The position numbers and the translations under genes were made by a program. Below, piece by piece: positions 7,026-28,149 of a stretch of DNA of 64,000 bases. The notes below the pieces were generated by a model. It was not told the DNA's origin. It did not search any database and was given only the letters and a program-made list of their open reading frames with translations. Position 1 is the first letter of the stretch. Each line of letters begins with the position of its first letter. This DNA is from Spongiibacter sp. IMCC21906 (GTDB lineage Bacteria; Pseudomonadota; Gammaproteobacteria; Pseudomonadales; Spongiibacteraceae). The stretch lies in the NCBI RefSeq assembly GCF_001010805.1, contig NZ_CP011477.1:1-64000 (forward strand), in the 5' to 3' direction.

Positions 7026-7035
7026 CTCCTCGCTC

Positions 7036-7125
7036 TCACACCCTAGCAATTCCCCTTTTAGCAAGTCACACCCTAGCAACTCCCCTTCTAGTAATTCACA
7101 CCCTAGCAGCTCACACCCTGGCTAC
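7036..7125. repeat. Short tandem repeat, 30 bp period with 15 bp sub-period
   Basis: TCACACCCTAGCA starts at 7036, 7066 and 7096, and a variant TCACACCCTGGCT at 7111 (spacing 30, 30, 15). Intervening units read like TCCCCTTCTAGTAAT. It lies between the doe terminator and the next gene and encodes nothing recognisable. Confidence 0.8.
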
Positions 7126-7171
7126 TCCCCGCCAGCCAACCCTAAACCGCAGAAACTGTTATTATCGTTTG

Positions 7172-15042: not shown

Positions 15043-15395
15043 TTCCGACTCCGTATTTCCCCGACCCATCGCAGGCCGCCGGGATTGAAAAAGACCGCTA
15101 TTCTAGCGAGATTCGGGGGATTTCGCTATGTGGGAGCTCCGCAAGTCCACCCTAGCGAAAAATAATCTGCAAAACTGGCAACATTAGCGCCTCTCGTGAG
15201 GCTTAACACCCAACCACCTCAGCCCAAGTTTTTATATCGACATTCTTAAGCACAGGGCAAATTACTCCGCCAGGGATTAATCTAGGTGGCCTGGACATAC
15301 AAACCAACTAGGTTAGCCCCCGCGCCAAGTCCCACTGCCGCCTTGAACAACCTCAGCCTTGCCATACTCCCGCAGGTGGACGTGCCAATTTCCCT

Positions 15396-15446
15396 CAGTT
15401 ACGTTTCCCCAGTTACGCTCCCCCAGTTACGCTCCCCCAGTTACGC
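15396..15446. repeat. 14 bp tandem repeat, four copies
   Basis: CAGTTACG starts at 15396, 15410, 15424 and 15438, exact 14 bp spacing; the unit is CAGTTACGCTCCCC with slight variation in the first copy. Confidence 0.85.
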
Positions 15447-15477: not shown

Positions 15478-15620
15478 AGACTCTATTCAGGTATGAAATG
15501 AGTTCAGAGATGAGCAAAATACCACTTCCATCTACTCTCACAGCGTTGCATAAGCTTGACTCAAATGGCCCCAGACAACCCCAGAGCCAAGAGAATAATA
15601 GAAAGAAGACCCACCGTACT

Positions 15621-16313
15621 TCGTCATTCCGGACGCGTTTTTTTGCGATCCGGAATCCAGCAGCCCTAGCTGCGTTAAAGGCTTAACAGCTAGTTGTATC
15701 CCCCCACCAGCCAAGGGCGACAGCACTAAGTACCCGAGTCTCGTAACTGCCCGCATTCGCGAGCATCGCAACAGAGGAGCATCACGACCAGCAGTGACCG
15801 CAGGGCCAAGGCAATAATAGAAAAAAGGCCCACCGCACTTCGTCATTCCGGACGCGTTTTTTGCGATCCGGAATCCAGCAGCCCCAACTGCGTTAAAGGC
15901 TTAACAGCTAGTTGTATCCCCCCGCCAGCCAAGGGCGACAGCACTAAGTACCCGAGTCTCGTAACTGCCCGCATTCGCGAGCATCGCAACAGAGGAGCAT
16001 CACGACCAGCAGTGACCCCAGCGCCAAGGCAATAATAGAAAAAAGCCCACCGCACTTCGTCATTCCGGACGCGTTTTTTGCGATCCGGAATCCAGCAGCC
16101 CCAGCTGCGTTAAAGGCTTAACAGCTAGTTGTATCCCCCCACCAGTCAAGGGCGACAGCACTAAGCACCCAAGTCTCGTAACTGCCCGCATTCGCGAGCA
16201 TCGCAACAGAGGAGCATCACGACCAGCAGTGACCCCAGCGCCAAGGCAATAATAGAAAAAAGCCCACCGCACTTCGTCATTCCGGACGCGTTTTTTGCGA
16301 TCCGGAATCCAGC
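15621..16313. repeat. 217-219 bp tandem repeat, three full units plus partial flanking units
   Basis: The marker TCGTCATTCC starts at 15621, 15840, 16057 and 16274 (periods 219, 217, 217). Units are almost identical, the first differing partly by one extra T in a run. A partial unit precedes 15621 and another ends near 16313. Each unit contains a palindrome with arms ATTCCGGA and TCCGGAAT around a T-rich loop. The high identity suggests recent tandem amplification of a REP-containing segment. Confidence 0.92.
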
Positions 16314-16414
16314 GGCCCAAATTTATTAGCTTGCAAGAAACACAGAACCCAGCCGCCCAAGAGGAAAATTGTTATTTACCGAAATATGCTTATTTCCTCC
16401 TAGCTCCAGAAACC

Positions 16415-16471: not shown

Positions 16472-18601
16472 CTATTTCTTGCGTTTTTTACGGCTTTCCG
16501 CAGGGCGGGGGCGGTAGTCCAGCTTCGGCATTCTGGGCAGCTTCCCTGAAGCCAGGTACTTATGGGTTTGCTCTTGTGAGCGAATTTTTGCCACCCCTTT
16601 CGCCCGGGGGTGGAAGTGATTACTCAAACTGGCATCAAGAATGCGCGCCTTAACATTATCGGCCCACTGAATATCCAGAATATCCTGAATCATCTTTTGC
16701 AAAGGTTTGCTGTACACCGGGCAACTCACCTCAACACGAAAATCAATATTGCGAGTCATCAAGTCTGCCGACGAAATGTAATACCGAGGCTCACCGCCAT
16801 TGCGAAACACATAGACCCGCGGGTGCTCAAGATAACGATCCACAATACTGATGGCTTCAATATTGTCACTCAGCCCCGGCACGCCAGGCACCAACGAACA
16901 CATGCCGCGCACAATAATTCGTACCGGTACACCGGCCTGACTTGCCGCATAGAGCCGGTCAATCAACTCCTTATCGACAAGGTTATTACACTTCAGGGTG
17001 ATGCCGCATTGCTTGCCAGCATTGGCATTGTCAATTTCAGTATTCACCATCCCCAGAATATTTTGCCGACTATTCAAAGGGGACACCGACAAGTGTTTGA
17101 AACGGTGGCGCTTATAGGTATAAGCAATAAAATCAAAAACTTTAGCGACCTCGTCGCCAATTTCCTGATCGTAGGTCATCAGGCTGAAGTCGGTGTAAAT
17201 CGACGCCGTTTTCTCATTAAAATTGCCGGTGCCGACATGGGTGTAATAACGCTGGGTATTTCCCTCCTGGCGCACAATAGAAATCAGCTTGCCATGCACC
17301 TTCAAACCCGGCACACCAAGGATGACGTTAACGCCACCGTCGGTGAGGCGCTGGGACAAGGCGATATTTGCCTCTTCATCAAACCGTGCCTGCAGCTCTA
17401 CCACCACCGTGACTTCTTTGTGGTTGGCCACCGCATTCAGCAAGGCATCCACCACATGGGAGTTAGATGCCACCCGATAAAGACTGATTTTGATACTTTT
17501 AACTGAGGGGTCGATGGCCGCTGTTTTTAGCAAATCGGTCAGGTAATCAAAGCTGTGGTAAGGATAATAAAGCAGTACATCCTGATCGCGGATACAGCTC
17601 AGAATATTGTCAGCTTTGGCAATTTCAGCATGGGGAATATTCGGCAACGGTTTTAACTCTAAATACGCCGGCCCTAAATTGGGAAAGCGCATAAAATCTT
17701 TAGAGTTGTGATAACGACCGCCAGGAATCATCGAATCCAAACGCCCTAAACCCAAACGTTTGACCAAATATTCCAGCAAATCATTGGGCATGGCACTGTC
17801 GTAAACAAAGCGCACCGGATCGCCTTTTTTACGGCGCTTCAGGCTCTGGGCCATCTTCTCGACAAAGGTCTGGGTCAGCTCTTCGCTTAATTCCAATTCG
17901 GCGTCACGGGTCAGCTTTATGGTATAGGCATCGGCGCTGTCCAGCGGGAAAATACCGCGAAACACCTCCTGCAAGCACACCCGAATAATATTCTCCAAGG
18001 TGATGATTACCTTGCCCCGTTTGCCCTTGCGGCTGGGGATGCGAATAAAGCGATCAAGCCGGGAAGTGGGAATTTCCAGCAGCGCAAACCGGGTTTGCCC
18101 TTCAAAGCCCAAACGAATAGCCAAATAGATAGACGCATCATTAAGCTCTGGCACCGGATGACTGTCGTCCAGCAGAATCGGCACCAGCTCTTGCTGAATA
18201 TGGCTATAAAAATAGCGTTTTACATATTCCTGCTGAGTGTCATCCAATTGTTTTTCATTGATGATGTATATTTTTCGACGCTGTAGTTCTTTTAGTAACT
18301 CGGTATAGGTCGTATCAAAACGACGTTGCAGCTTGAGCACACTCTGGCGAATTTCTTCCAGCAGCTGCTTATAATCTTCTTGTTTAGATGGCGTAGAGAA
18401 CGCCGCCAAACGACGAACATCCGCCACTCTTACCCTAAAAAACTCATCAAGATTATTAGAGAAGATGCCCAAATAACGAATGCGCTGTATCACCGGTACT
18501 TTAGGATCAGCCGCCTCTTGCAACACCCGCTCATTAAAAGACAACCAGCTAAGTTCCTTGGCAATCCAAGCCTGCTTATCACCGGTACCCGACATCGACA
18601 A
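16472..18601 (-). CDS. ppk1: Polyphosphate kinase 1
   Basis: A 709-residue enzyme that reversibly makes polyphosphate from ATP; usual length is about 690-720. The N-terminal domain begins WIAKELSWLSFNERVLQEA; FSNNLDEFFRVRVA is characteristic. The phospholipase-D-like catalytic domains hold the phosphorylated His in RYYTHVGTGNFNEKTA and the LYRVASNSHVVDAL segment. A basic tail (KLDYRPRPAESRKKRKK) ends the chain. Translation could start at either Met1 or Met3. It is divergent from ppx across 141 bases that contain a TGTCAT/ATGACA inverted repeat. Confidence 0.97.
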   Translation of the reverse strand: MSMSGTGDKQAWIAKELSWLSFNERVLQEAADPKVPVIQRIRYLGIFSNNLDEFFRVRVADVRRLAAFSTPSKQEDYKQLLEEIRQSVLKLQRRFDTTYTELLKELQRRKIYIINEKQLDDTQQEYVKRYFYSHIQQELVPILLDDSHPVPELNDASIYLAIRLGFEGQTRFALLEIPTSRLDRFIRIPSRKGKRGKVIITLENIIRVCLQEVFRGIFPLDSADAYTIKLTRDAELELSEELTQTFVEKMAQSLKRRKKGDPVRFVYDSAMPNDLLEYLVKRLGLGRLDSMIPGGRYHNSKDFMRFPNLGPAYLELKPLPNIPHAEIAKADNILSCIRDQDVLLYYPYHSFDYLTDLLKTAAIDPSVKSIKISLYRVASNSHVVDALLNAVANHKEVTVVVELQARFDEEANIALSQRLTDGGVNVILGVPGLKVHGKLISIVRQEGNTQRYYTHVGTGNFNEKTASIYTDFSLMTYDQEIGDEVAKVFDFIAYTYKRHRFKHLSVSPLNSRQNILGMVNTEIDNANAGKQCGITLKCNNLVDKELIDRLYAASQAGVPVRIIVRGMCSLVPGVPGLSDNIEAISIVDRYLEHPRVYVFRNGGEPRYYISSADLMTRNIDFRVEVSCPVYSKPLQKMIQDILDIQWADNVKARILDASLSNHFHPRAKGVAKIRSQEQTHKYLASGKLPRMPKLDYRPRPAESRKKRKK

Positions 18602-20316: not shown

Positions 20317-20676
20317 GGGGCCGATTTGGATTCGACGCCGGTAACAAAGCTCTGTGGTGCATGCCGTGATGGCAGCCAATCACGTTAATCCAAAGCTGTA
20401 AACGATATAGTTGCCAACGACGACAACTACGCTCTAGCGGCTTAAACCCCTGCTAGCGGTCATAAGTGGATGCTTGTAAACACGAAGTGACCGTCATATA
20501 GAACAAGCTAGCGATGAAGTTTGTCTGAGACGGACTCGCGAAACTCCTAATCAGAATCGCCAATATCGTCCTGACCGTTGGGCTGATTGCGGCTAAATTA
20601 ATTAACGGAAACTAAGCATGTAGAGCCCTGAGTGGCGGACTGGCGGACGCGGGTTCAAATCCCGCCGGCTCCACCA
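20317..20676 (+). ncRNA. ssrA: Transfer-messenger RNA (tmRNA)
   Basis: 360 nucleotides. The 5' GGGGCCG pairs with 3' CGGCTCC to give the 7 bp acceptor stem, followed by ACCA at 20673-20676. The 5' sequence GGATTCGACGCCGG is the conserved D-analogue region and GGGTTCAAATCCCGC the T-arm. The tag reading frame at 20413-20445 encodes ANDDNYALAA and stop, one residue different from the E. coli tag. A possible minus-10 TACAAT lies at 20283-20288 with a short processed leader. The 3' end is the attachment site of the mobile element that follows. Confidence 0.97.
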
Positions 20677-20738
20677 AAAACACTTCCAAGGGAGACCAAG
20701 GAAGGCCTAGAACCCCAGTAAATCTGGGGTTTTTTGTG
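20663..20738 (+). repeat. attL of the tmRNA-integrated element
   Basis: Runs from CGCCGGC in the tmRNA 3' end through the terminator to TTTTTTGTG. It matches 26085-26156 with a few substitutions and a 3-4 base gap (shared blocks include TTCCAAGGGA, GGAAGGCCT and the AACCCCAGTAAATCTGGGG hairpin). Confidence 0.85.
20711..20736 (+). terminator. tmRNA terminator, now inside attL
   Basis: AACCCCAG-TAAAT-CTGGGGTT followed by T residues. The same hairpin recurs at 26129, showing it is part of the duplicated attachment region. Confidence 0.9.
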
Positions 20739-20759
20739 TCTATAGCGTCCATAGGTGTC

Positions 20760-20847
20760 TGGGGGCATCTATTGCAATCCAGTACAAAGCGGGGGCACAA
20801 TCGGGGGCATAAACGGATTTCACCAAACAGGTGCCCCCAGATGCCCC
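20760..20847. promoter_or_regulatory. Putative integrase arm-type sites, left end
   Basis: TGGGGGCAT (20760), CGGGGGCAC (20790) and CGGGGGCAT (20802) in one orientation, and GTGCCCCCA (20831) plus ATGCCCC (20841, overlapping the integrase start codon) in the other. The same 9-mer occurs twice just inside the right end (26002, 26014). Such clusters flanking the core are typical of tyrosine-recombinase arm or accessory-protein sites; overlap with the start codon suggests autorepression. Confidence 0.6.
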
Positions 20848-22058
20848 TAACAGACCCCGCAGTAAAGCTAGCCAAGCCCAAGGACAAACCCTATCGCCTA
20901 ACTGATGGCGAAGGCATGTACTTGGAAGTCTCTCCCAAGGGCGGCAAATACTGGCGAATGAAGTATCGTTTCGGGGGAAAAGAAAAACGGCTTTCTATTG
21001 GCGTCTACCCAACCACATCCCTAAAGAAGGCCCGCCAGCTTAGAGAACAAGCTCGCCGACAGCTTAGCGATGGCATCGACCCTTCTGCCCTCAAGCAAAT
21101 AACGAAACTTGTCAGCTCTACCGCCGCTGCAAACAGCTTCAAAGTTGTTGCACTCGAATGGTTTGCCAAGCAGAAGCCGACATGGGCCGAAAGTCATTGG
21201 AGCAAAGTCGATCGGATGATGGAGCGGGACTTGTTCCCCTACCTAGGCACCCGCCCACTGAATGAGATCACCCCGCCTGAACTATTAGCCGTATTGCGAA
21301 AGATTGAAAGCCGTGGCGCTCTTGAGTCTGCCAAACGCACAAAACAAATAGCCGGCCAGATATTTCGCTACGGAGTGGCAACAGGTCGATGTGAACGCGA
21401 TCCGGCCCAAGACCTTAACGGCGCACTAGCCACCCCCGTCAAAAAACATTTTGCAGCGATTACAGAACCCAAAGCTGTCGGCGCACTCCTGAACGCCCTA
21501 GAAGGCTATCAGGGAACCGCTGTTGTCCGAGCGGCCCTTCGCATTGCCCCGCTGACGTTTGTTCGCCCCGGCGAATTACGGAAGGCTAAATGGGCGGAGA
21601 TTGATTTCGATAAAGCTGAATGGCGTTATTTCGTCACCAAAACAAAGTCTGAACATATTGTGCCGCTATCAACGCAGGCTATCGACATACTCCGAGAGCT
21701 TCAGCCCCTGACCTGTAGAAGCGAATATGTATTCCCAAGCGCAAGAACACTTAGCCGGCCAATGAGTAACAACGCAGTGTTATCGGCTATGCGCCGCATG
21801 GGAATCGATAAAGATGAAATGTGCGGGCATGGCTTCCGAGCAATGGCGCGAACGATACTAGACGAGGAATTACAATTTCGACCTGACTGGATCGAACACC
21901 AGTTAGCCCATGCGGTAAAGGACGTTCATGGCAGAGCCTATAACCGCACCGCTCACCTAACGGAGCGCAAGAAGATGATGCAAGCTTGGGCGAACTACTT
22001 AGACAACCTAAAAGCGCAGGCTGCAAATAACAATGTGATAGCGGCTAATTTTGGCTGA
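20841..22058 (+). CDS. P4-type tyrosine recombinase (integrase)
   Basis: A 405-residue integrase starting MPLTDPAVKLAKPKDKPYRL, the DUF4102 N-terminal domain of P4/prophage-CP4 integrases (about 1-85). A SAM-like core-binding domain spans about 95-190 and the catalytic domain 205-385. Active-site residues are visible: Arg242 (VRPGELRKAKW), Lys near 269, His330-x-x-Arg333 (HGFRAM), His357 (LAHAV) and nucleophile Tyr367 (GRAYNRT). The start at 20841 replaces the upstream in-frame ATG at 20736, which would add an unrelated 35 residues and run into attL. It drives integration at the adjacent tmRNA 3' end. Confidence 0.96.
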   Translation: MPLTDPAVKLAKPKDKPYRLTDGEGMYLEVSPKGGKYWRMKYRFGGKEKRLSIGVYPTTSLKKARQLREQARRQLSDGIDPSALKQITKLVSSTAAANSFKVVALEWFAKQKPTWAESHWSKVDRMMERDLFPYLGTRPLNEITPPELLAVLRKIESRGALESAKRTKQIAGQIFRYGVATGRCERDPAQDLNGALATPVKKHFAAITEPKAVGALLNALEGYQGTAVVRAALRIAPLTFVRPGELRKAKWAEIDFDKAEWRYFVTKTKSEHIVPLSTQAIDILRELQPLTCRSEYVFPSARTLSRPMSNNAVLSAMRRMGIDKDEMCGHGFRAMARTILDEELQFRPDWIEHQLAHAVKDVHGRAYNRTAHLTERKKMMQAWANYLDNLKAQAANNNVIAANFG

Positions 22059-22072
22059 GGTCACTTGTAAGC

Positions 22073-22106
22073 GGGCGGGGACGGTATTGGCGTACCACCC
22101 CCGCCC
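22073..22106 (+). other. GC-rich hairpin between the integrase and the next gene
   Basis: GGGCGGGG (22073-22080) pairs with CCCCGCCC (22099-22106), with an inner GGTA/TACC pairing. No T run follows, so it may be a factor-dependent terminator, an RNA-stability element or a protein site. Confidence 0.6.
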
Positions 22107-22139
22107 TAACCACAAACCACCTGATAGAGAGGTGAAATT

Positions 22140-22418
22140 ATGGCTAATGCCGATACTACCAAAACTAGACGCCTTCCCGGCGGATTAAGTTATGACCCCG
22201 AACTGAGCGCCGGAAACCTGTTTGATGACGGCTTTGCTTTGCTGGCTACCGCTACAGAACAGATCAAACAAACGGCGGATCGTCTTTTCAACAGTGATGA
22301 CGAGGAAGAAAACAACTTGTCCGCTGCCCTCTACGGTAGCGTTTGGCTGGTCGAGCTTTCTCACGACATGCTGTTCGGAGCAAGTGAGAAACGATACAAC
22401 GAGGAGGTAAAGCCATGA
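22140..22418 (+). CDS. Small unknown protein of the element
   Basis: 92 residues, acidic, no signal peptide or membrane segment. It has a predicted helical centre (NLFDDGFALLATATEQIKQTADRLF) and a second hydrophobic helix (LYGSVWLVELSHDMLFG). A good ribosome site (GAGAGG) lies 8 bases before the ATG. The stop overlaps the next gene by 4 bases, so the two are co-translated. I do not recognise the family; similar small proteins are common in integrative elements of proteobacteria. Confidence 0.7.
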   Translation: MANADTTKTRRLPGGLSYDPELSAGNLFDDGFALLATATEQIKQTADRLFNSDDEEENNLSAALYGSVWLVELSHDMLFGASEKRYNEEVKP

Positions 22419-22642
22419 AGCAGGTTGCAAAAACATCGTCCGCATCCGTCATTGATGCGGCCTCAGCTATTGCCGAGAGAATCGAAATGCTAACTAAAGT
22501 TGTTGTACTTGGCATCGACAACGAAAACGGCGGCGACCTTGAGTTAAGCGGGGCAGACGCCTATGAAGCTGCGAGCATGATTGTCGACCTTGTACGCCAG
22601 CAACGACAATTAATTGGCGAGATTGAAATATCACTTAACTAA
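22415..22642 (+). CDS. Small unknown helical protein of the element
   Basis: 75 residues, translationally coupled to the previous gene (ATGA overlap) with GAGGAGG upstream. Almost entirely helical by composition: VIDAASAIAERIEMLTKVVV, then ADAYEAASMIVDLVRQQRQL. Possibly a small partner of the 92-residue protein. No family recognised. Confidence 0.65.
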   Translation: MKQVAKTSSASVIDAASAIAERIEMLTKVVVLGIDNENGGDLELSGADAYEAASMIVDLVRQQRQLIGEIEISLN

Positions 22643-22663
22643 GTACCGGATATAACCCAATTG

Positions 22664-22716
22664 CCACCCCTAACCCGACGGGGAACAGGCCGTAAACCTT
22701 CACCGGCTTGGGGTGG
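22664..22716 (+). other. Candidate structured RNA leader
   Basis: CCACCCC (22664-22670) pairs with GGGGTGG (22710-22716). Inside are two small stems, CCC/GGG around 22675-22683 and GCCG/CGGC around 22689-22707, giving a plausible three-way junction just upstream of the GTG-started gene at 22749. It could regulate translation or be a DNA structure; no known riboswitch class is recognised. Confidence 0.4.
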
Positions 22717-22748
22717 TAACCTTTGAAGGGGCGCAGGAAGGCTCGTAG

Positions 22749-23573
22749 GTGGATAACACCCCGTTAAGCAATCACCTCAGATATTTCAAACGCTCGGAAT
22801 TTCCCGAATGGGTGCCTACGGGCGCGCTGTTAATGCTCGAATGGTCGGTGGGTGCATTCAAGGGGAGGAAGGGATCTTTTAACAGCCAAGACGAGAAGCT
22901 TATTTCTCTTCATAGGCGCGATGAAATGAAATATTCATGGGAAAAAATAATAAGTTTCTTTTCCGAAGACCCCGACTGGGGTGGCGCTTGGTTCTCACAG
23001 ACACTCGATTATTCTTTCCCGCCCCAATACTCCAATCTCAAGCCGGTATCGGCAACAAAAGCAAAAAATTGGCAATCAGGATTTGCTAAAAATCTATTGA
23101 AATCATCCAGGTTCGCCAAAAGTGTTCCTGGGAATTTTTTTGGCTGGGAGCATGAATTTAGACGAGAGGTCGGCATATACCTCCACCGTAGAGGCCAGCA
23201 CAATGCGCATGACAAGATTGAGGATATGGTGGGGGAGCTTCCGCCGCCCAGCGTCCTACTAAATTCAATGCATACCGCCCTTTCAAATGCTTACAACTGG
23301 CACAGAGAGGAATTGTTTGGAAAGCAGCCGGAGGGAGATAATAGCTCCCGCCTTTATTTCATGAGGTCGCTAACATCCAACCTTGTTCAAGCAACAACCA
23401 AACCGCTTCGAAAGGTTGTCGCAGATGCAGCGTCAGTAGGCTTTGATTGCCAAATTTCAGAACGTGAAGTTATTAGAGCGTGCAAAGGTATATCAAGCAA
23501 GGAGTCGATAGTTCACCGAATAGACGCTGAGGCTGAGACAATTGAAAGAGTTCTAGGTCGTATGCAACCCTGA
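22749..23573 (+). CDS. Unknown 274-residue protein of the element
   Basis: Starts with GTG preceded by AGGAAGG. It is soluble, rich in aromatic and basic residues (EFPEWVPTGALLMLEW, FFGWEHEFRREVGIYLHRRG) with a helical C-terminal third (EAETIERVLGRM). No enzyme motif or helix-turn-helix is obvious. It lies between the small paired genes and alpA, the position where satellites and integrative elements often carry variable cargo. I do not recognise the family and give no function. Confidence 0.75.
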   Translation: MDNTPLSNHLRYFKRSEFPEWVPTGALLMLEWSVGAFKGRKGSFNSQDEKLISLHRRDEMKYSWEKIISFFSEDPDWGGAWFSQTLDYSFPPQYSNLKPVSATKAKNWQSGFAKNLLKSSRFAKSVPGNFFGWEHEFRREVGIYLHRRGQHNAHDKIEDMVGELPPPSVLLNSMHTALSNAYNWHREELFGKQPEGDNSSRLYFMRSLTSNLVQATTKPLRKVVADAASVGFDCQISEREVIRACKGISSKESIVHRIDAEAETIERVLGRMQP

Positions 23574-23687
23574 CACAAAACTATAAAAAATAGAAATTCC
23601 TGCCATTAGAGCTTGGATCGCAATCCGTGAAAATCCATAGGCAGCCATGCATTTCTGCTGGCGCTCACAATTTATATGGAGTTCCCG

Positions 23688-23894
23688 ATGGTAGAGCAAG
23701 CAACAGAAGCACTGTTACGCCGCAAACAAGTCGAGGCCCGCACCGGGCTAACCCGCAGCACAATCTACGCCCTGATGGCAGAGAGTAAATTCCCCAAGCC
23801 TGTACCGCTGGTAGGCCGCACTGTGGCCTGGACGCAAAGCAGCATTGATAAGTGGATTGCTGAGCGCATCGCCGCCAGTAAGTCCGCCGCTTAA
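23688..23894 (+). CDS. alpA: AlpA-family transcriptional regulator/excisionase
   Basis: A 68-residue MerR-like winged-helix DNA-binding protein: LLRRKQVEARTGLTRSTIYA, then PVPLVGRTVAWTQSSIDKWI, the standard AlpA pattern. In CP4-57 and P4-like elements AlpA/Vis activates excision or late functions. The start at 23688 is preferred to the ATG at 23676 because GGAG (23678-23681) then lies at the right distance. The preceding 110 bases have no clear operator. The protein may bind the GGGGGCA arm sites. Confidence 0.9.
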   Translation: MVEQATEALLRRKQVEARTGLTRSTIYALMAESKFPKPVPLVGRTVAWTQSSIDKWIAERIAASKSAA

Positions 23895-23908
23895 GGGAGG
23901 TGCCAGAA

Positions 23909-24217
23909 ATGAAAAAGGCCACCCCGAAGAGCAGCCAATCACACACCACCAATTCTACAGCCAGCAGCGACCAGCGCCAACGCCTTATAGCGGCATTGCG
24001 TGAAATAGGTAGCAGTGGACTAACAACAATTCAGATCCGCGAACAGCTTGATATTATGATGCCCGCTGCAAGGGTTCACGAATTGCGCTGGAATCACGGA
24101 TATAACATTCAAGCTATCCCAACGCACGACTACAACGCCCAAGGTCACCGCCATTCCTGCAAACGATATGTATTGTTCGCGGGTAAATGGGATCGAGTGC
24201 GGAGGGCAGCGCAATGA
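23909..24217 (+). CDS. Winged-helix domain protein of the element
   Basis: A 102-residue protein with an unstructured Lys/Thr/Ser-rich start and a winged-helix-like core (RQRLIAALREIGSSGLTTIQ, IREQLDIMMPAARVHELR, GYNI) of the kind seen in small mobile-element DNA-binding proteins. ATG at 23909 is chosen over GTG at 23900 since GGGAGG ends 9 bases upstream. Its stop overlaps the next gene start by 4 bases. It probably acts in replication or regulation of the element. Confidence 0.7.
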   Translation: MKKATPKSSQSHTTNSTASSDQRQRLIAALREIGSSGLTTIQIREQLDIMMPAARVHELRWNHGYNIQAIPTHDYNAQGHRHSCKRYVLFAGKWDRVRRAAQ

Positions 24218-24393
24218 ATCGTTATTTAGTGGAAGTCCGGCAAGTAATAACCACCCCCGTCACCGTTGATGCAGACAACATCGAGGACGCCCCCAAACGC
24301 GCTCTATACGGCATGGGAGAGTGTGGCGACCAAGAGGCGGGAGAGCTGCGAATTGTCGCTACACGGCTATTAGAATCGGCTGAGATAGCGTGA
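24214..24393 (+). CDS. Small unknown protein, 59 residues
   Basis: MNRYLVEVRQVITTPVTVDA begins a beta-rich small protein with an acidic middle. ATGA overlap with the upstream gene and a GGAGG-like site within it indicate coupling; the next gene begins 1 base after its stop. The pattern of a strand followed by VDADNIEDAPKRAL resembles short domains common in phage-like elements. No function assigned. Confidence 0.6.
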   Translation: MNRYLVEVRQVITTPVTVDADNIEDAPKRALYGMGECGDQEAGELRIVATRLLESAEIA

Positions 24394-24394
24394 T

Positions 24395-25207
24395 ATGACG
24401 CTTCTTCAAAAGCTATTAGCTCGTGGCGGGGCCGTTTACCTTGAAGCTGGGCAGCTCACAATCAAATCGAACGAAGGGCAACACCTCCCAGAGGATTGGA
24501 TCTGCCAACATCAAACGCAGTTGCTAAGGGATATTTCAGCGGCTACAGGGCTTCCAATATTTCAGTATCAAGGCCACTCAACTGGTCGATATGGCAGGTA
24601 CAAAGCATCCGGTGTAACACTGCGCTATGTGGATCTCGTTACCGGCGAGCAACATGCTTTAACATTTAACGCCGATCTAAGCAGAGACCGAACCACCCGC
24701 TATGGTAAGAAAGGTCAGCCACTACCTAGGGGCCAATTCAGAGTGGGTAACAATCACGCCTTTACGCTTTATTGGCAATCAATGGGCTTACCATTACCGC
24801 GCCGGTTATCAGCCTTCCACGAGTGCATGGGGAAATTAAAAACCGTTATTGTGACGGGGGTGGTTGCCTCTGACTCAAAGCTGGATAAAGCATTAATCAA
24901 GCCGCTGTCATTGTCATGTGATGAAATAAAAATCGCTTTAGATATTAAAAAAACACCCGACAACTATCCGACAAGAAACCGACAACTTTCCGACAACTAC
25001 CCGACAAGCACACCCGACAAGGAAACCGCTGAAAGCCCCAAAACCAAAGGGGTACAGAGCGATTTAAGTACGTGTGCAAATCAGTACGAATTAAGTAATA
25101 AAGAAGGAACGTATAAAGGAACATCCTTTAAGCCCCTAGTAAGTAATATATCCCCACAAGAACAAAGCAATGACGAATGGCTAAATGACTATGACGCCGC
25201 CAGTTGA
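24395..25207 (+). CDS. Putative replication-associated protein containing the iteron array
   Basis: A 270-residue protein starting MTLLQKLLARGGAVYLEAGQ, a start I associate with genes in other integrative elements but not with a defined function. The N-terminal 160 residues look globular; the C-terminal 110 are low-complexity and polar with 11-residue-spaced DNYPT repeats. Those repeats are a by-product of a DNA array of CCGACAA every 11 bp (24957-25020), preceded by A+T-rich DNA. The layout mirrors phage lambda O, in which the initiator gene contains its own origin. Role as an initiator is inference from this layout; no helicase or primase motif is visible. Confidence 0.7.
   Translation: MTLLQKLLARGGAVYLEAGQLTIKSNEGQHLPEDWICQHQTQLLRDISAATGLPIFQYQGHSTGRYGRYKASGVTLRYVDLVTGEQHALTFNADLSRDRTTRYGKKGQPLPRGQFRVGNNHAFTLYWQSMGLPLPRRLSAFHECMGKLKTVIVTGVVASDSKLDKALIKPLSLSCDEIKIALDIKKTPDNYPTRNRQLSDNYPTSTPDKETAESPKTKGVQSDLSTCANQYELSNKEGTYKGTSFKPLVSNISPQEQSNDEWLNDYDAAS
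24957..25020 (+). repeat. Iteron array: six CCGACAA repeats, 11 bp period
   Basis: CCGACAA starts at 24957, 24968, 24979, 24990, 25001 and 25014 (spacing 11, 11, 11, 11, 13). An 11 bp period puts all sites on one helix face and is not a codon multiple, so selection on DNA rather than protein is likely. A 30-35 base A+T-rich tract (about 24922-24955) flanks it, as a duplex-unwinding element would. Confidence 0.9.
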
Positions 25208-25478
25208 TTGTTTGAATAATATTGATGAACTGCCTATAACCAACGACGAGAAACGATCAATCTACAAGCAATGGGCAAGATCTGAGAATAGCGGCCCTTA
25301 CCCTGATGAATGCCGCGACTTAACTTGTGGGGCTAAAACGCGAGCCGGTACACCCTGCAAGCAGAAGGCGATATACAGCAATGGGCGCTGCAAGTTTCAC
25401 GGCGGTTTATCAACTGGCCCAAGGACAGCAGAAGGTAAAGCGAAATCAGCAGCCAACGGGTTTAAAAAAATCCCATGA
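25185..25478 (+). CDS. HGG-motif small zinc-finger-like protein
   Basis: A 97-residue protein with CGAKTRAGTPCKQKAIYSNG then CKFHGGLSTGPRTAEGKA. The four cysteines and His could bind a metal. The CGAKT..C..C.FHGG.STGP.T pattern is widespread in small proteins of phages and genomic islands of gammaproteobacteria, function unknown. The gene overlaps the preceding one by 23 bases; a second ATG at 25191 is possible. Confidence 0.75.
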   Translation: MTMTPPVDCLNNIDELPITNDEKRSIYKQWARSENSGPYPDECRDLTCGAKTRAGTPCKQKAIYSNGRCKFHGGLSTGPRTAEGKAKSAANGFKKIP

Positions 25479-25748
25479 GAGGGGCAAGATAGCGGCAAGG
25501 TTTAGACAAGGGTATTAGCACCAGAACAGCGAACCCCATGTGATGCTCAGAATTGTTAAGGCCCACAAACCCCATGTGCTATTGACTAATGTTGACACCA
25601 CAACGGCCATAGAACCTTATAAAACCTAACATTGATTTACCTATAATTTCACTAGGTCGAGTATTTCCCGTCTATAAAAAAGGGATCAAATACATCTCGC
25701 GTCCAGTCGTTCTAGGTCAAGTTTAGTAAGGTTTAGGGAAGGGTAGTT

Positions 25749-25978
25749 ATGACACCCCCTAAAGACAGTGAAACCGGCCTACAGATAGTTTTAGCAGCAA
25801 TACGCGCGCGATACCGGCGATAGAATGGGTACATCATCACACGCCGCTAATAATCCCAGAGCTGGCAATTGATGACTGGCTAACCGGGTCGGTGGATGAC
25901 GCCACCGAAATCATGAAAATAAATAAAAATATTTTAATAGCCGTATCAGCGATACAAAGCCCACCAAAAACCGCCTGA
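25749..25978 (+). pseudogene. Frameshifted small frame near the right end of the element
   Basis: ATG at 25749 with GGGAAGG upstream encodes MTPPKDSETGLQIVLAAIRA before an early stop. In another frame the text continues as AIPAIEWVHHHTPLIIPELA, IDDWLTGSVDDATEIMKINK to a TGA ending at 25978. One indel near 25810-25825 would join them into a protein of about 76 residues. The remainder of 25479-26084 is non-coding and holds two direct repeats, AACCCCATGTG (25532, 25568) and CTAGGTCRAGT (25652, 25712). Confidence 0.45.
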
Positions 25979-26001
25979 TAACAACCCTAGCGAAGCCATT
26001 C

Positions 26002-26022
26002 TGGGGGCATTTATGGGGGCAT
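26002..26022. promoter_or_regulatory. Putative arm-type sites, right end
   Basis: TGGGGGCAT at 26002-26010 and again at 26014-26022, identical to the site at 20760; 63 bases inside attR. Confidence 0.6.
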
Positions 26023-26084
26023 ATTTCAAAACACAAATTAAATACTATTTACTAATCAGCCGCTTATGGAGTCTATTAAAGTGA

Positions 26085-26156
26085 CGCCGGCCCAACAAAT
26101 CTTCCAAGGGATACCTCGGAAGGCCTGAAACCCCAGTAAATCTGGGGTTTTTTGTG
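26085..26156 (+). repeat. attR of the element, with duplicated tmRNA terminator
   Basis: Imperfect copy of 20663-20738. Starts CGCCGGC and includes TTCCAAGGGA, GGAAGGCCT and the hairpin AACCCCAG-TAAAT-CTGGGGTT at 26129-26149 with a T run. Confidence 0.85.
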
Positions 26157-26177
26157 CCTGAACGGTCTGTATGGTTC

Positions 26178-26277
26178 CGGGGGTATGCGAATAAATGGGG
26201 GTAGCTCAGTACCCCCAATGAAACTCACAGTTTCAACGATCAAGGAAGCCAAGCCAGCGGAAAGCCCTACAAGCTGT
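26178..26277 (+). pseudogene. Remnant of a second P4-type integrase with its own leader sites
   Basis: From ATG at 26218 the text reads MKLTVSTIKEAKPAESPTS, which matches the N-terminus of DUF4102 integrases (compare MPLTDPAVKLAKPKDKPY of the intact one), and then runs into another attachment-like repeat. The leader copies the arm-site layout in diverged form: CGGGGGTAT (26178), TGGGGGTAG (26196) and the inverted GTACCCCCA (26209-26217) abutting the ATG. So this is the left end of a different, almost fully deleted element inserted in tandem. Confidence 0.7.
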
Positions 26278-26282
26278 AGTGA

Positions 26283-26334
26283 CGCCGACCTACCAAATAT
26301 CAAACCTCAACTTGAAAAAGTTGGGGTTTTTTAT
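26283..26334 (+). repeat. Third attachment-site-like repeat
   Basis: GTGACGCCGACCTACCAAAT (26279-26298) closely matches GTGACGCCGGCCCAACAAAT (26081-26100), and is followed by an 11 bp stem AACCTCAACTT/AAGTTGGGGTT (26303-26328) with T run, as in attR. Likely the right end of the deleted second element. Confidence 0.6.
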
Positions 26335-26436
26335 TGCCTGCGCATCGGACTCTACTCATTAACGGGGAGCGGCACTCATCAAACGCTATTTGATTCTAAA
26401 ATCCTGATGTAAATTACTCCAATGGTTCTTTAGTTT

Positions 26437-27654
26437 TTACTTGTGCGCCTCATTCATTGGGAGATCATTGACTGCCTCTGGCCAAAGGTTTCGCGCCTTT
26501 TCCATAACATCATCTAGGTGGGGTTTAATGACTCTCCAGGGAATGCCGGCACGCTCAGCCCACGACTGAAAATTTGCCATTGAGACGCCATACCACTCTT
26601 TGGTCTTCCCTAAATTAAGCGCGAAATTACGCTCACCGTCGATATACACGCTTGTGGTAACAATATCGTATGCTGGCGAAATCCTTGGCGTTATTTTATC
26701 TGAATAAATCAAACTCCAATTTTTTAGATGCGCATCACCGTTTGCAAGCAGAATGTTAACTAGCAGTCGTCTGGCGAACTGCTGCGTATCAGCCAAGCCG
26801 TCACCAGAATAGCCGTAAAGAATACGTCCGATTTGTTGGTAGTTTGCCGAGTTGTATTTTTCATGGGCATACTTAACCAGTACTTGGGCAAAGTCTTCCA
26901 TGTGAATACGTGTATCATCAGCGCGATCAAAACGTTTAATTGCGAAAGCAAGTTTTTCATCGGGCAGGTTTATTTGAGGAAGATTGTCTAACTTACTCAG
27001 CTCAATCAGCTTAATTTCTGGAATGTCGACGCCAACTAATTCCGCAAGTTTCATTGCGGTGTATTCGTTCAGCGGCACATCTTTATGCTTGGTGGAAGGG
27101 GTTTTTACAATCCAATCCCCTAATACATCGCCCTTAGAAAGATTGTAGCGTCCGTCCTTTTCCTTCATGGAAAATTTCATCTGAACGCCAGCCAAAGAAA
27201 ATTTGTTTTCCGATGATGTCTTGTCAAACTTTACTGCTCGAGCTTTGCCGTGAGTATTAAGAACACTATCCGGCACATCGTCAGGTTCCATCGGCTCGGC
27301 TACCAAAGCGCCAGGAAGGTCGGCACCTAAGTATGAAAGGATATGGAACTCGTTATCGACATGAGTTTTGAGTCCTTGCGCAATTAACTCCCGCAAGGCC
27401 CCCTCAGGAAGTAAGTTTGACAGCGTCGGATGCAATCTCTGGTTTCTTGCCCACGACTCCGCCATTATTTTTTCAGCACGAGGAAATGCTGGGTGGGTAA
27501 TTAAACTAAATGTAGGACGACTTGCATCACTTCTGAATTCATCGGCAAAGCTCAGCACATTTCGACCACTTTGAAAGCCAGCCAAATAGCCCACCAGCCT
27601 TCCGTGCAGGCTCAACTTGAGTACATTTATTTCATCGACACGGCTATCGCTCAT
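26437..27654 (-). CDS. hipA: HipA-family serine/threonine kinase toxin
   Basis: A 405-residue type II toxin. The N-subdomain (LSLHGRLVGYLAGF) precedes the kinase core, with SLAGVQMKFSM (ATP-binding region), the catalytic loop LANGDAHLKNW, and ISPAYDIVTT as the metal-binding loop. HipA phosphorylates glutamyl-tRNA synthetase in E. coli, causing growth arrest; the target here could differ. It overlaps the upstream hipB by 4 bases. A+T content is higher than in flanking chromosomal genes, which fits transfer with the tmRNA island. Confidence 0.9.
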   Translation of the reverse strand: MSDSRVDEINVLKLSLHGRLVGYLAGFQSGRNVLSFADEFRSDASRPTFSLITHPAFPRAEKIMAESWARNQRLHPTLSNLLPEGALRELIAQGLKTHVDNEFHILSYLGADLPGALVAEPMEPDDVPDSVLNTHGKARAVKFDKTSSENKFSLAGVQMKFSMKEKDGRYNLSKGDVLGDWIVKTPSTKHKDVPLNEYTAMKLAELVGVDIPEIKLIELSKLDNLPQINLPDEKLAFAIKRFDRADDTRIHMEDFAQVLVKYAHEKYNSANYQQIGRILYGYSGDGLADTQQFARRLLVNILLANGDAHLKNWSLIYSDKITPRISPAYDIVTTSVYIDGERNFALNLGKTKEWYGVSMANFQSWAERAGIPWRVIKPHLDDVMEKARNLWPEAVNDLPMNEAHK

Positions 27655-28019
27655 GTCTCATCCCCCAGCAAGTCTTGCCACGGGTCATCTGAAAGACTTT
27701 TTCTTGCGTCTTCTTTTACAGCTTTTTTCGCGCTAGACATACGCCCCTTGTTTGGCTCGAAAGGCGGCTCGTTAATCGTTGAGAGCTCCTCCTGTTCGAG
27801 CAGCGCCATGACTGCACCAAGCTTTTCCTTTGGTATGAGCACAAGTTCGCTATTCAAGCCCTTGGCAATCAACGCCAAGGTGTCCAACCTAGGATTCCCC
27901 TTAGATTCCAAGCGCTGATATTGCTGACGAGATACACCTACTCGCAACATCATGTCGTTCTGCTTAAGCCCGAGCGCCAATCGCCGCTGCTTGATCTGCT
28001 GAAGTATAGAATTCATCAT
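27651..28019 (-). CDS. hipB: HipB-family antitoxin
   Basis: About 122 residues. The XRE helix-turn-helix is SILQQIKQRRLALGLKQNDM, RVGVSRQQYQRLESKGNPRL (about 3-60), and the long C-terminal tail (GRMSSAKKAVKEDARKSL) is typical of antitoxins that wrap the toxin. The upstream in-frame ATG at 28055 would add an AT-rich leader; 28019 is preferred. The promoter region carries repeated AGCAAC half-sites and one perfect palindrome, consistent with autorepression. Confidence 0.88.
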   Translation of the reverse strand: MMNSILQQIKQRRLALGLKQNDMMLRVGVSRQQYQRLESKGNPRLDTLALIAKGLNSELVLIPKEKLGAVMALLEQEELSTINEPPFEPNKGRMSSAKKAVKEDARKSLSDDPWQDLLGDET

Positions 28020-28050
28020 AGTAAACACATATATTGCTTTTTCGATTAAT

Positions 28051-28149
28051 AGCAACAGATTAGTTTCCTATATCCTAAAAAGCAACATATTAGCTTCTTT
28101 TAAAAAGCCATTGCAGCAAAAACATAAAAAGCAACCAATATGTTGCTTT
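28051..28149. promoter_or_regulatory. hipBA operator region
   Basis: Direct repeat AGCAACAGATTAGTTTC (28051) and AGCAACATATTAGCTTC (28081), 30 bp apart, and a perfect palindrome AAAGCAAC-CAATAT-GTTGCTTT (28128-28149). All share the half-site AGCAAC and lie directly upstream of hipB. Confidence 0.7.

Follow-up and report, generated by a model that had tools for sequence, protein, structure and literature searches.

The window analysed here (64,000 nucleotides, positions 1 to 64,000 of contig NZ_CP011477.1 of Spongiibacter sp. IMCC21906) harbors, next to the tmRNA gene ssrA, an island that encodes a tyrosine integrase, an AlpA-type protein and a 270-residue putative replication initiator, hereafter Rep. 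Six phased copies of the heptamer CCGACAA lie within the rep gene itself. The features referred to below are the following, with positions counted along the window.

20317-20676, forward strand: ssrA (tmRNA, found by ARAGORN), the integration target; its 3' end is attL
20674-20768, no strand: left end of the island, an att-flanking repeat that includes the island's terminator, repeated at 26092-26186 (79%)
20736-22058, forward: tyrosine integrase, start codon uncertain (PF00589, PF22022, PF13356)
22140-23573, forward: three ORFs of 92, 75 and 274 aa, no match at E 0.001 or better
23676-23894, forward: AlpA-type regulator/excisionase (PF05930, E 1e-18)
23900-24217, forward: winged-helix HTH_39 protein (PF14090, E 1.8e-11)
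24214-24393, forward: 59-aa ORF, no match at E 0.001 or better
24395-25207, forward: 270-aa putative replication initiator, Rep (relatives, AF2 models)
24803-24841, forward: codons 137-149 of rep, for the second helix of a predicted helix-turn-helix (HTH), a putative recognition helix, which covaries with the iteron core
24957-25020, forward: iteron array, six CCGACAA (counts, Tandem Repeats Finder, synonymous test, family conservation)
25067-25122, forward: conserved second block (block 2), a candidate unwinding element that starts 48 nt past iteron 6
25151-25201, forward: codons 253-269 of rep, C-terminal helix with a conserved N-[DE]-[DEQ]-W-L-like motif, a putative replisome contact (pLDDT about 55)
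25185-25478, forward: ORF of 97 aa that overlaps rep at its end (PHROG 6177, of unknown function, E 3.6e-8)
25997-26100, no strand: right end of the island with attR and TGGGGGCAT repeats as at the left (putative integrase arm sites); G004, G006 and G013 share this right end
26101-26298, no strand: remnant of about 0.2 kb left by another, related element and enclosed by two copies of att, followed by the native ssrA 3' flank

The extent of the island follows from a comparison of its ends with those in related genomes. As in the window, ssrA in G013 is directly adjoined by the integrase gene, and in that genome the right end (window 26001-26098) runs straight into the native ssrA flank (window 26278-26341); the right end in G006 is as in G013, and the island is therefore about 5.4 kb long (20677-26100). 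Within the window, a second copy of the ssrA 3' end with adjoining island sequence lies at 26080-26186, and a further copy, of just the att part, at 26278-26298. G004 and G013 likewise have a related integrase gene after ssrA. The remnant at 26101-26298 suggests tandem integration and loss at ssrA, and partial ssrA 3' copies of 26-54 bp (one of 185 bp in G009) occur in G005, G008, G009 and G017 of the genus; judging from these sequences, ssrA looks like an integration hotspot.

Searches of the nine island ORFs against Pfam and PHROG gave no primase, helicase, loader, capsid or terminase at E 0.001 or better, a search that a divergent loader, helicase or primase could escape, and matched no partition gene. 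The 97-aa ORF weakly matches a terminase small subunit family (E 0.0062), the five island ORFs of no known family had no match in PADLOC, and the host genome has no Pfam match to a portal or TerL ATPase.

All six CCGACAA copies that the preliminary description had placed inside the 270-residue gene were found there (starts at 24957, 24968, 24979, 24990, 25001 and 25014), and the open frame 24395-25207 (270 codons) contains the whole array. The 11-bp period claimed for it holds for four of the steps but not for the last (11, 11, 11, 11 and 13 bp). CCGACAA is found 22 times in the window, where 7.9 copies are expected, and none of 100 shuffles reaches 22; Tandem Repeats Finder detects the array with periods of 11 and 22; and the agreement score of the six phased heptamers is 42 out of 42, the maximum in 20 local shuffles of the whole window being 31. 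An A+T-rich flank had also been described: the tract to the left of the array is indeed A-rich in the window (20% GC over 40 nt), but the same flank averages 46% GC in the family and lies below the N-domain in GC in 12 of 18 family genes. Being unconserved, the left tract was dropped as an unwinding element, which it probably is not. The conserved low-GC block sits on the right of the array, at 25067-25122.

The Rep family, its arrays and its elements

The rep gene is present in one copy in the window's genome. Counting that genome each time, the family was found in 4 of 21 genomes of the taxonomic family, in 11 of 390 of an order sample and in 1 of 369 of a class-wide sample; since the last yields the own genome alone, the Rep family is either rare or patchily distributed. 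Scanning genome contigs with a profile brought up 16 Rep loci, in Zhongshania, Neptuniibacter, Amphritea, Neptunomonas, Microbulbifer, Parahaliea, Stutzerimonas, Porticoccaceae, HTCC2207 and SAR92. The family itself came from whole-genome searches and this profile scan: searching phages, plasmids, viral contigs and genome contigs with single proteins returned nothing, phage and plasmid records gave no Rep match, and the Rep profile matched nothing in viral contigs. Relatives in four viral contigs were reached via the iteron pattern and then by a search with one protein found in that way, L229, which is 40% identical to the Rep of the window. In two contigs of G016, C43 and C44 (L010 and L011), the sequence starts inside Rep at residue 42, and a full copy is on C64; these starts are probably assembly breaks at repeated islands.

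The preliminary description had proposed checking whether each homologue carries an iteron family of its own at 11-bp spacing, and this turned out to be so in nearly the whole family. Counting the window's gene, 25 members of the family span the region, and in 24 of them six iterons with steps of 11-11-11-11-13 bp are found at the same place when that template is imposed. In these counts L024 is left out because its match (profile 57-135) stops short of the array, L020, L021 and L023 are counted apart because only their array part was matched (in L020 and L023 together with the tail), and two contig-edge fragments, L040 and L041, are counted in (L041 fills 13% of the tree columns). The geometry does not depend wholly on the template: with none imposed, 20 of the 21 Rep genes tested have 11 bp as the best or tied-best period in the range 8 to 25, and a free chain search recovers 11-11-11-11-13 in L002, L003, L005, L006, L020 and L023 and, in L004, the last five of the sites. 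The commonest core varies by lineage (CCGACAA, CTGACAA, CAGACAA, CCGGACAA, CCGGGTAA, CCGGATAA, CCGATAA, CAGGGAA and GGCACAA). Arrays are degenerate in L026 (36/42) and L016 (35/42). A homologue lacking spaced repeats, which had been named as evidence against the origin reading, was met with only once among the 25: L019, the most distant relative (21% identity), is a related protein with no array.

Block 2 is likewise fixed in place. An automatic search puts it 48 nt after the last iteron in 13 of 18 genes, and in the other five it stands at an equal offset in the printed sequences, L016 being one base off for a reason related to the anchor. Its GC content (mean 0.42, window 0.33) compares with 0.51 for the N-domain and is the lower of the two in 16 of the 18 genes.

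That selection acts on the DNA of the array, as had been claimed, is borne out by codon permutation. When the protein of the window was kept and its synonymous codons were permuted, none of 2000 permutations reached the score of 42 (mean 32.6, maximum 39), and the array is thus not a by-product of the protein. Over 21 genes, including that of the window, the observed score was reached in 0 of 2000 permutations in 13 and in 1-28 of 2000 in seven, L019 accounting for the last with 1680 of 2000; when codon order was shuffled, the fitted score was never reached in 20 of the 21. Third-codon-position entropy in 15 genes is 1.65 for the N-domain versus 1.11 for the array and 1.17 for block 2. One could suppose instead that the array is a side effect of peptide repeats in a low-complexity linker, since the linker is disordered in the AlphaFold model and contains a loose peptide repeat, PDN..T...Q. 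Such a protein-level repeat would be at odds with the permutation result (at most 28 of 2000 in 20 of 21 genes) and the low third-position entropy, and also with the coordinates, by which the heptamer is read in all three frames, so that we find this explanation hardly credible.

The array can also stand behind another protein. At two loci of G547 (L020 and L023), array, block 2 and the tail EQTNDQWLADY lie downstream of a different N-terminal ORF, which in L023 is 42% identical to the 'replication protein O' of Pseudomonas phage vB_Pae_U1. Phased arrays are present in all three of the loci matched in the array part (L020, L021 and L023), and in L020 and L023 three of the six iterons show CCGGACAA, which is also the core of L036 and L475. 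Since the two ORFs are separate at both G547 loci, these pairs may be degenerate.

The elements that carry relatives are diverse. Among the 21 loci fetched in which a rep ORF was called, 18 have a related integrase gene upstream of rep and in the same orientation, the remaining three being two contig edges and L039, where the integrase is on the opposite side; an ORF of the AlpA cluster lies between the two genes in 11 of these 18 loci, and also in the window. The L009 element bears type I restriction-modification and Fic genes (Pfam) as cargo, and BLAST clusters tie restriction-modification genes to L007, L008, L010, L011, L030, L031 and L032; in L007, L008, L009 and L030-L032 the core of integrase, in some cases AlpA, and rep thus occurs in islands with defence cargo. 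In the L229/L475 viral contig, 15 ORFs were compared with Pfam. They include an integrase, an HTH_17 regulator (not AlpA) and Rep, together with a capsid, protease, portal, HNH, small and large terminase, connector and head completion set, in which the HNH and TerS matches are below curated cut-offs; no tail family was matched among the 15, and five, Rep included, had no match at all. L477 has capsid, portal and large terminase genes on a contig that ends soon after. L478 has protease and capsid genes and an ORF of 1118 aa that matches a tape measure family (E 2.3e-51), so L478 may be a phage. The same gene led us to reject the idea that the relatives are all tail-less satellites, to which the Rep module is therefore not confined. 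The term satellite-like in the preliminary description agrees with the 5.4-kb island of integrase, AlpA and rep at ssrA and with relatives bearing head and packaging genes, but L478 has a tape measure gene as well.

Predicted structure of Rep and covariation with the iteron core

Rep of the window matches nothing in Pfam, PHROG or NCBIfam, the families of phage replication protein O in these collections included, and one PDB sequence at E 0.98; single members of the family give sporadic matches with E above 0.03. The earlier view of an unannotated protein that could define a new initiator family agrees with this absence of relatives in Pfam, PHROG, NCBIfam and PDB, the initiator role being putative. 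In the AlphaFold model, residues 1-180 have block means of 85-95, residues 186-252 lie below 50 and the C-terminal helix is at about 55; the N-domain modelled alone reaches a pLDDT of 93.7 and a pTM of 0.85. By our reading of the secondary structure in these models, a beta-barrel is followed by helices 122-129 and 138-150, which resemble a helix-turn-helix. Foldseek against the PDB found nothing at E 0.001 or better and no solved initiator, the best match being the single-stranded DNA-binding protein PrgE in its DNA-bound form (E 0.036, probability 0.84), and there are weak structural matches among viral proteins to an SSB (E 0.016) and to DUF669 (E 0.076). The array DNA encodes the disordered linker, which resembles the plan of phage lambda O, in which the initiator gene contains its origin; the predicted structure fits the lambda-like plan put forward in the preliminary description, with a putative DNA-binding N-domain and a C-terminal helix that is low in confidence.

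A covariation scan of residues 1-182 against eight core positions, on the 19 of 24 rows left after near-copies were dropped, ranked residues 143, 149 and 137 highest, the signals of 143 and 149 depending on two rows, L477 and L478. The next residues, 96, 14 and 17, lie outside the helix. Arginine 137 is present in all 15 rows with C at core position 6 in all six iterons and missing in all nine rows with C at that position in three iterons or fewer. It changes about three times on the best tree and once on well-supported (starred) branches, numbers with which a sign test cannot reach significance. The core is CCGGACAA in 6 of 6 iterons in L475 and L476 and GGCACAA in 6 of 6 in L477 and L478; block 2 is similar, and L475 and L477 have the first 90 integrase residues, as printed, in common. 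Taken as sequences, these rows suggest that initiator and iteron core change together, on few independent events. The natural pairs of CCGGACAA and GGCACAA in related elements would make initiator-origin recognition testable without engineering.

Interpretation and relation to known systems

We think it probable that the 270-residue gene encodes the initiator of a 5.4-kb integrative, satellite-like island and contains the origin of that island, on a plan like that of lambda O and in an unrelated family. Array, conservation, DNA constraint, fixed geometry, covariation, predicted domains and island boundaries are computed features of the locus; beside them we infer that Rep binds, that strands are opened and a replisome component recruited, and that the island is excised and transferred. 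In this model the N-domain, folded over about residues 1-180, would bind the six iterons through helix 138-150, and the 11-bp phasing would set the bound Rep molecules on about one face of the DNA. The resulting nucleoprotein array might then open block 2, 48 nt downstream, and the linker would end in a C-terminal helix recruiting a host or helper replisome component; we propose such recruitment since the island has no recognised primase, helicase or loader. It is natural to ask which protein of the host block 2 and the shared tail bring in.

It could also be that a different protein (the winged-helix neighbour, AlpA or the initiator of a helper phage) reads the array, as an origin or operator, and that the 270-residue protein acts at the opened DNA as an OB-like protein that binds single strands. 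The weak OB- and SSB-like structural matches (PrgE, SSB, DUF669) would fit this, and so would the occurrence of CCGGACAA in three of six iterons behind a different N-terminal ORF in L020 and L023; L020 has in addition a winged-helix-like gene (HTH_91, E 0.0013, below the curated cut-off). That CCGGACAA recurs there with a non-homologous N-terminal ORF is not predicted by a simple model in which the N-domain is the one reader. However, the covarying residues are those of Rep's own helix (137-149), and in L007, L009, L030 and L031 the AlpA gene stands directly before rep with no called ORF between, so that we judge a different reader unlikely; binding of single-stranded DNA by an OB fold as the main function of Rep was kept as part of this alternative only. 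Phased repeats also act as centromere or packaging sites, which leads to the further thought that the array is a packaging, partition or recombination site that happens to fall within a gene. The weak match of the 97-aa neighbour to a terminase small subunit family points the same way. Yet a low-GC block adjoins the array at a fixed distance, the array covaries with the protein encoded there, the N-terminal part can be replaced by a RepO-like ORF and no partition gene was matched, and we give this explanation very little chance.

Returning to the probable origin within rep, several known systems are comparable. In lambdoid phages the O gene holds iterons and an AT-rich tract and is bound by O, as described in passages of PMC7466680. 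The window has in common with lambda O and ori-lambda that the iterons lie within the coding sequence of their own (here putative) initiator; unlike there, Rep has no sequence match to phage O, the core of 7-8 bp is repeated in 11-bp steps and no P-like loader was recognised in the island. For SPP1, passages of PMC6316719 describe direct repeats of oriL that lie within gene 38, are bound by gp38 and go with an AT-rich DUE. The repeats are again inside a (putative) initiator gene, but the family searches made gave no relation to SPP1, which has its own loader, gp39, and helicase, gp40. Gram-negative PICIs have an integrase, an excision function, rep and an iteron origin, and the rep-ori of EcCICFT073 drives plasmid replication (sections of PMC6092414). 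The window island resembles them in having an integrase, an AlpA-type regulator/excisionase, rep and iterons; in PICIs, however, the origin comes after pri/rep and contains an AT-rich region with an iteron set on either side, whereas the window's island has one set inside rep and no recognised primase. The PICMI of Vibrionaceae, a marine satellite of 6.1 kb with int, alpA and a replication gene and no capsid remodelling genes in the text available of PMC10803314, shares with the island the integrase, AlpA and a putative replication gene, but it has prim (DUF3987/DUF5906) and sits at fis; the island has no primase match and sits at ssrA. Finally, the gene list of L229/L475, with no tail family matched, fits what the available part of PMC13230959 says of cf-PICIs. 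The window island differs from these in having no recognised head or packaging genes, and L478 differs in having a tape measure gene.

We also asked how common such arrays are. In viral contigs, GACAA at 11-bp spacing occurs at at least 120 loci, and so do two control patterns, the reversed core AACAG at 11 bp (at least 120) and GACAA at 12 bp (at least 120). Among the matches listed, which are not random samples, a same-strand ORF of 170-420 aa with the array at nt 300-460 was found for 61 of 120 loci with GACAA at 11 bp, for 66 of the 118 scored (of 120 listed) with AACAG at 11 bp and for 20 of 120 with GACAA at 12 bp. Because both controls also reach at least 120 loci, 11-bp GACAA was rejected as a mark of the family in viral contigs, and among the matches listed the GACAA core is not special. 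Of 381 genomes of the order, four have the 11-bp GACAA pattern, the window's included, and one has the reversed control. Eight array-bearing viral ORFs were scanned against protein families and gave DnaB_2 (one), Phage_rep_org_N (one), Lin1244_N (two), a weak PaaX match (one) and nothing (three). In the viral contigs L102-L221 and L240-L354, 11-bp repeats fall in initiator-size ORFs in about half of the matches listed, and there may be a general rule of phage origins behind 11-bp phased repeats.

The plan as such is not new, because intragenic origins are known from lambdoid phages and SPP1 and 11-bp arrays, built on two or more different cores, occur in many initiator-sized viral ORFs. What appear to be new in the open-access literature are the protein family, the fixed arrangement of six iterons with a last step of 13 bp and block 2, the cassette behind a different N-terminal ORF, the pairing of protein and DNA, and a replication module with no recognised primase that is common to small islands and capsid-bearing elements. 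Since such a module is common to restriction-modification islands and capsid-bearing elements, elements of this kind would be findable by origin geometry. One may go further and suppose that this is a new initiator family of beta-barrel and HTH whose helix and core change together in a readable way, set on a portable cassette, made up of the array, block 2 at its fixed distance and an NDEWL-like tail, which is met with behind an unrelated RepO-like ORF too, and that the cassette serves generally to recruit the replisome in those marine and related satellites and defence islands that do without a primase of their own; this wider proposal is offered tentatively, as one about which we are somewhat more doubtful than confident.

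Other repeats and genes in the window

Outside the island, positions 26437-28055 and 28046-28149 comprise a HipA/HipB-type pair (PF07804, PF13657, PF01381) and, upstream of it, three AGCAAC-containing repeats with an inverted repeat; the pair is divergent from a gene for a 331-aa HTH protein, and the arrangement looks like an autoregulated operator. On the other side of ssrA, Tandem Repeats Finder reports a 217-bp tandem repeat at 15578-16318 (3.4 copies, 96%), just downstream of an ORF of 709 aa at 16472-18601 that is polyphosphate-kinase-like by our reading, and short tandem arrays at 7035-7127 and 15391-15446 with periods of 15/30 bp and 14 bp.
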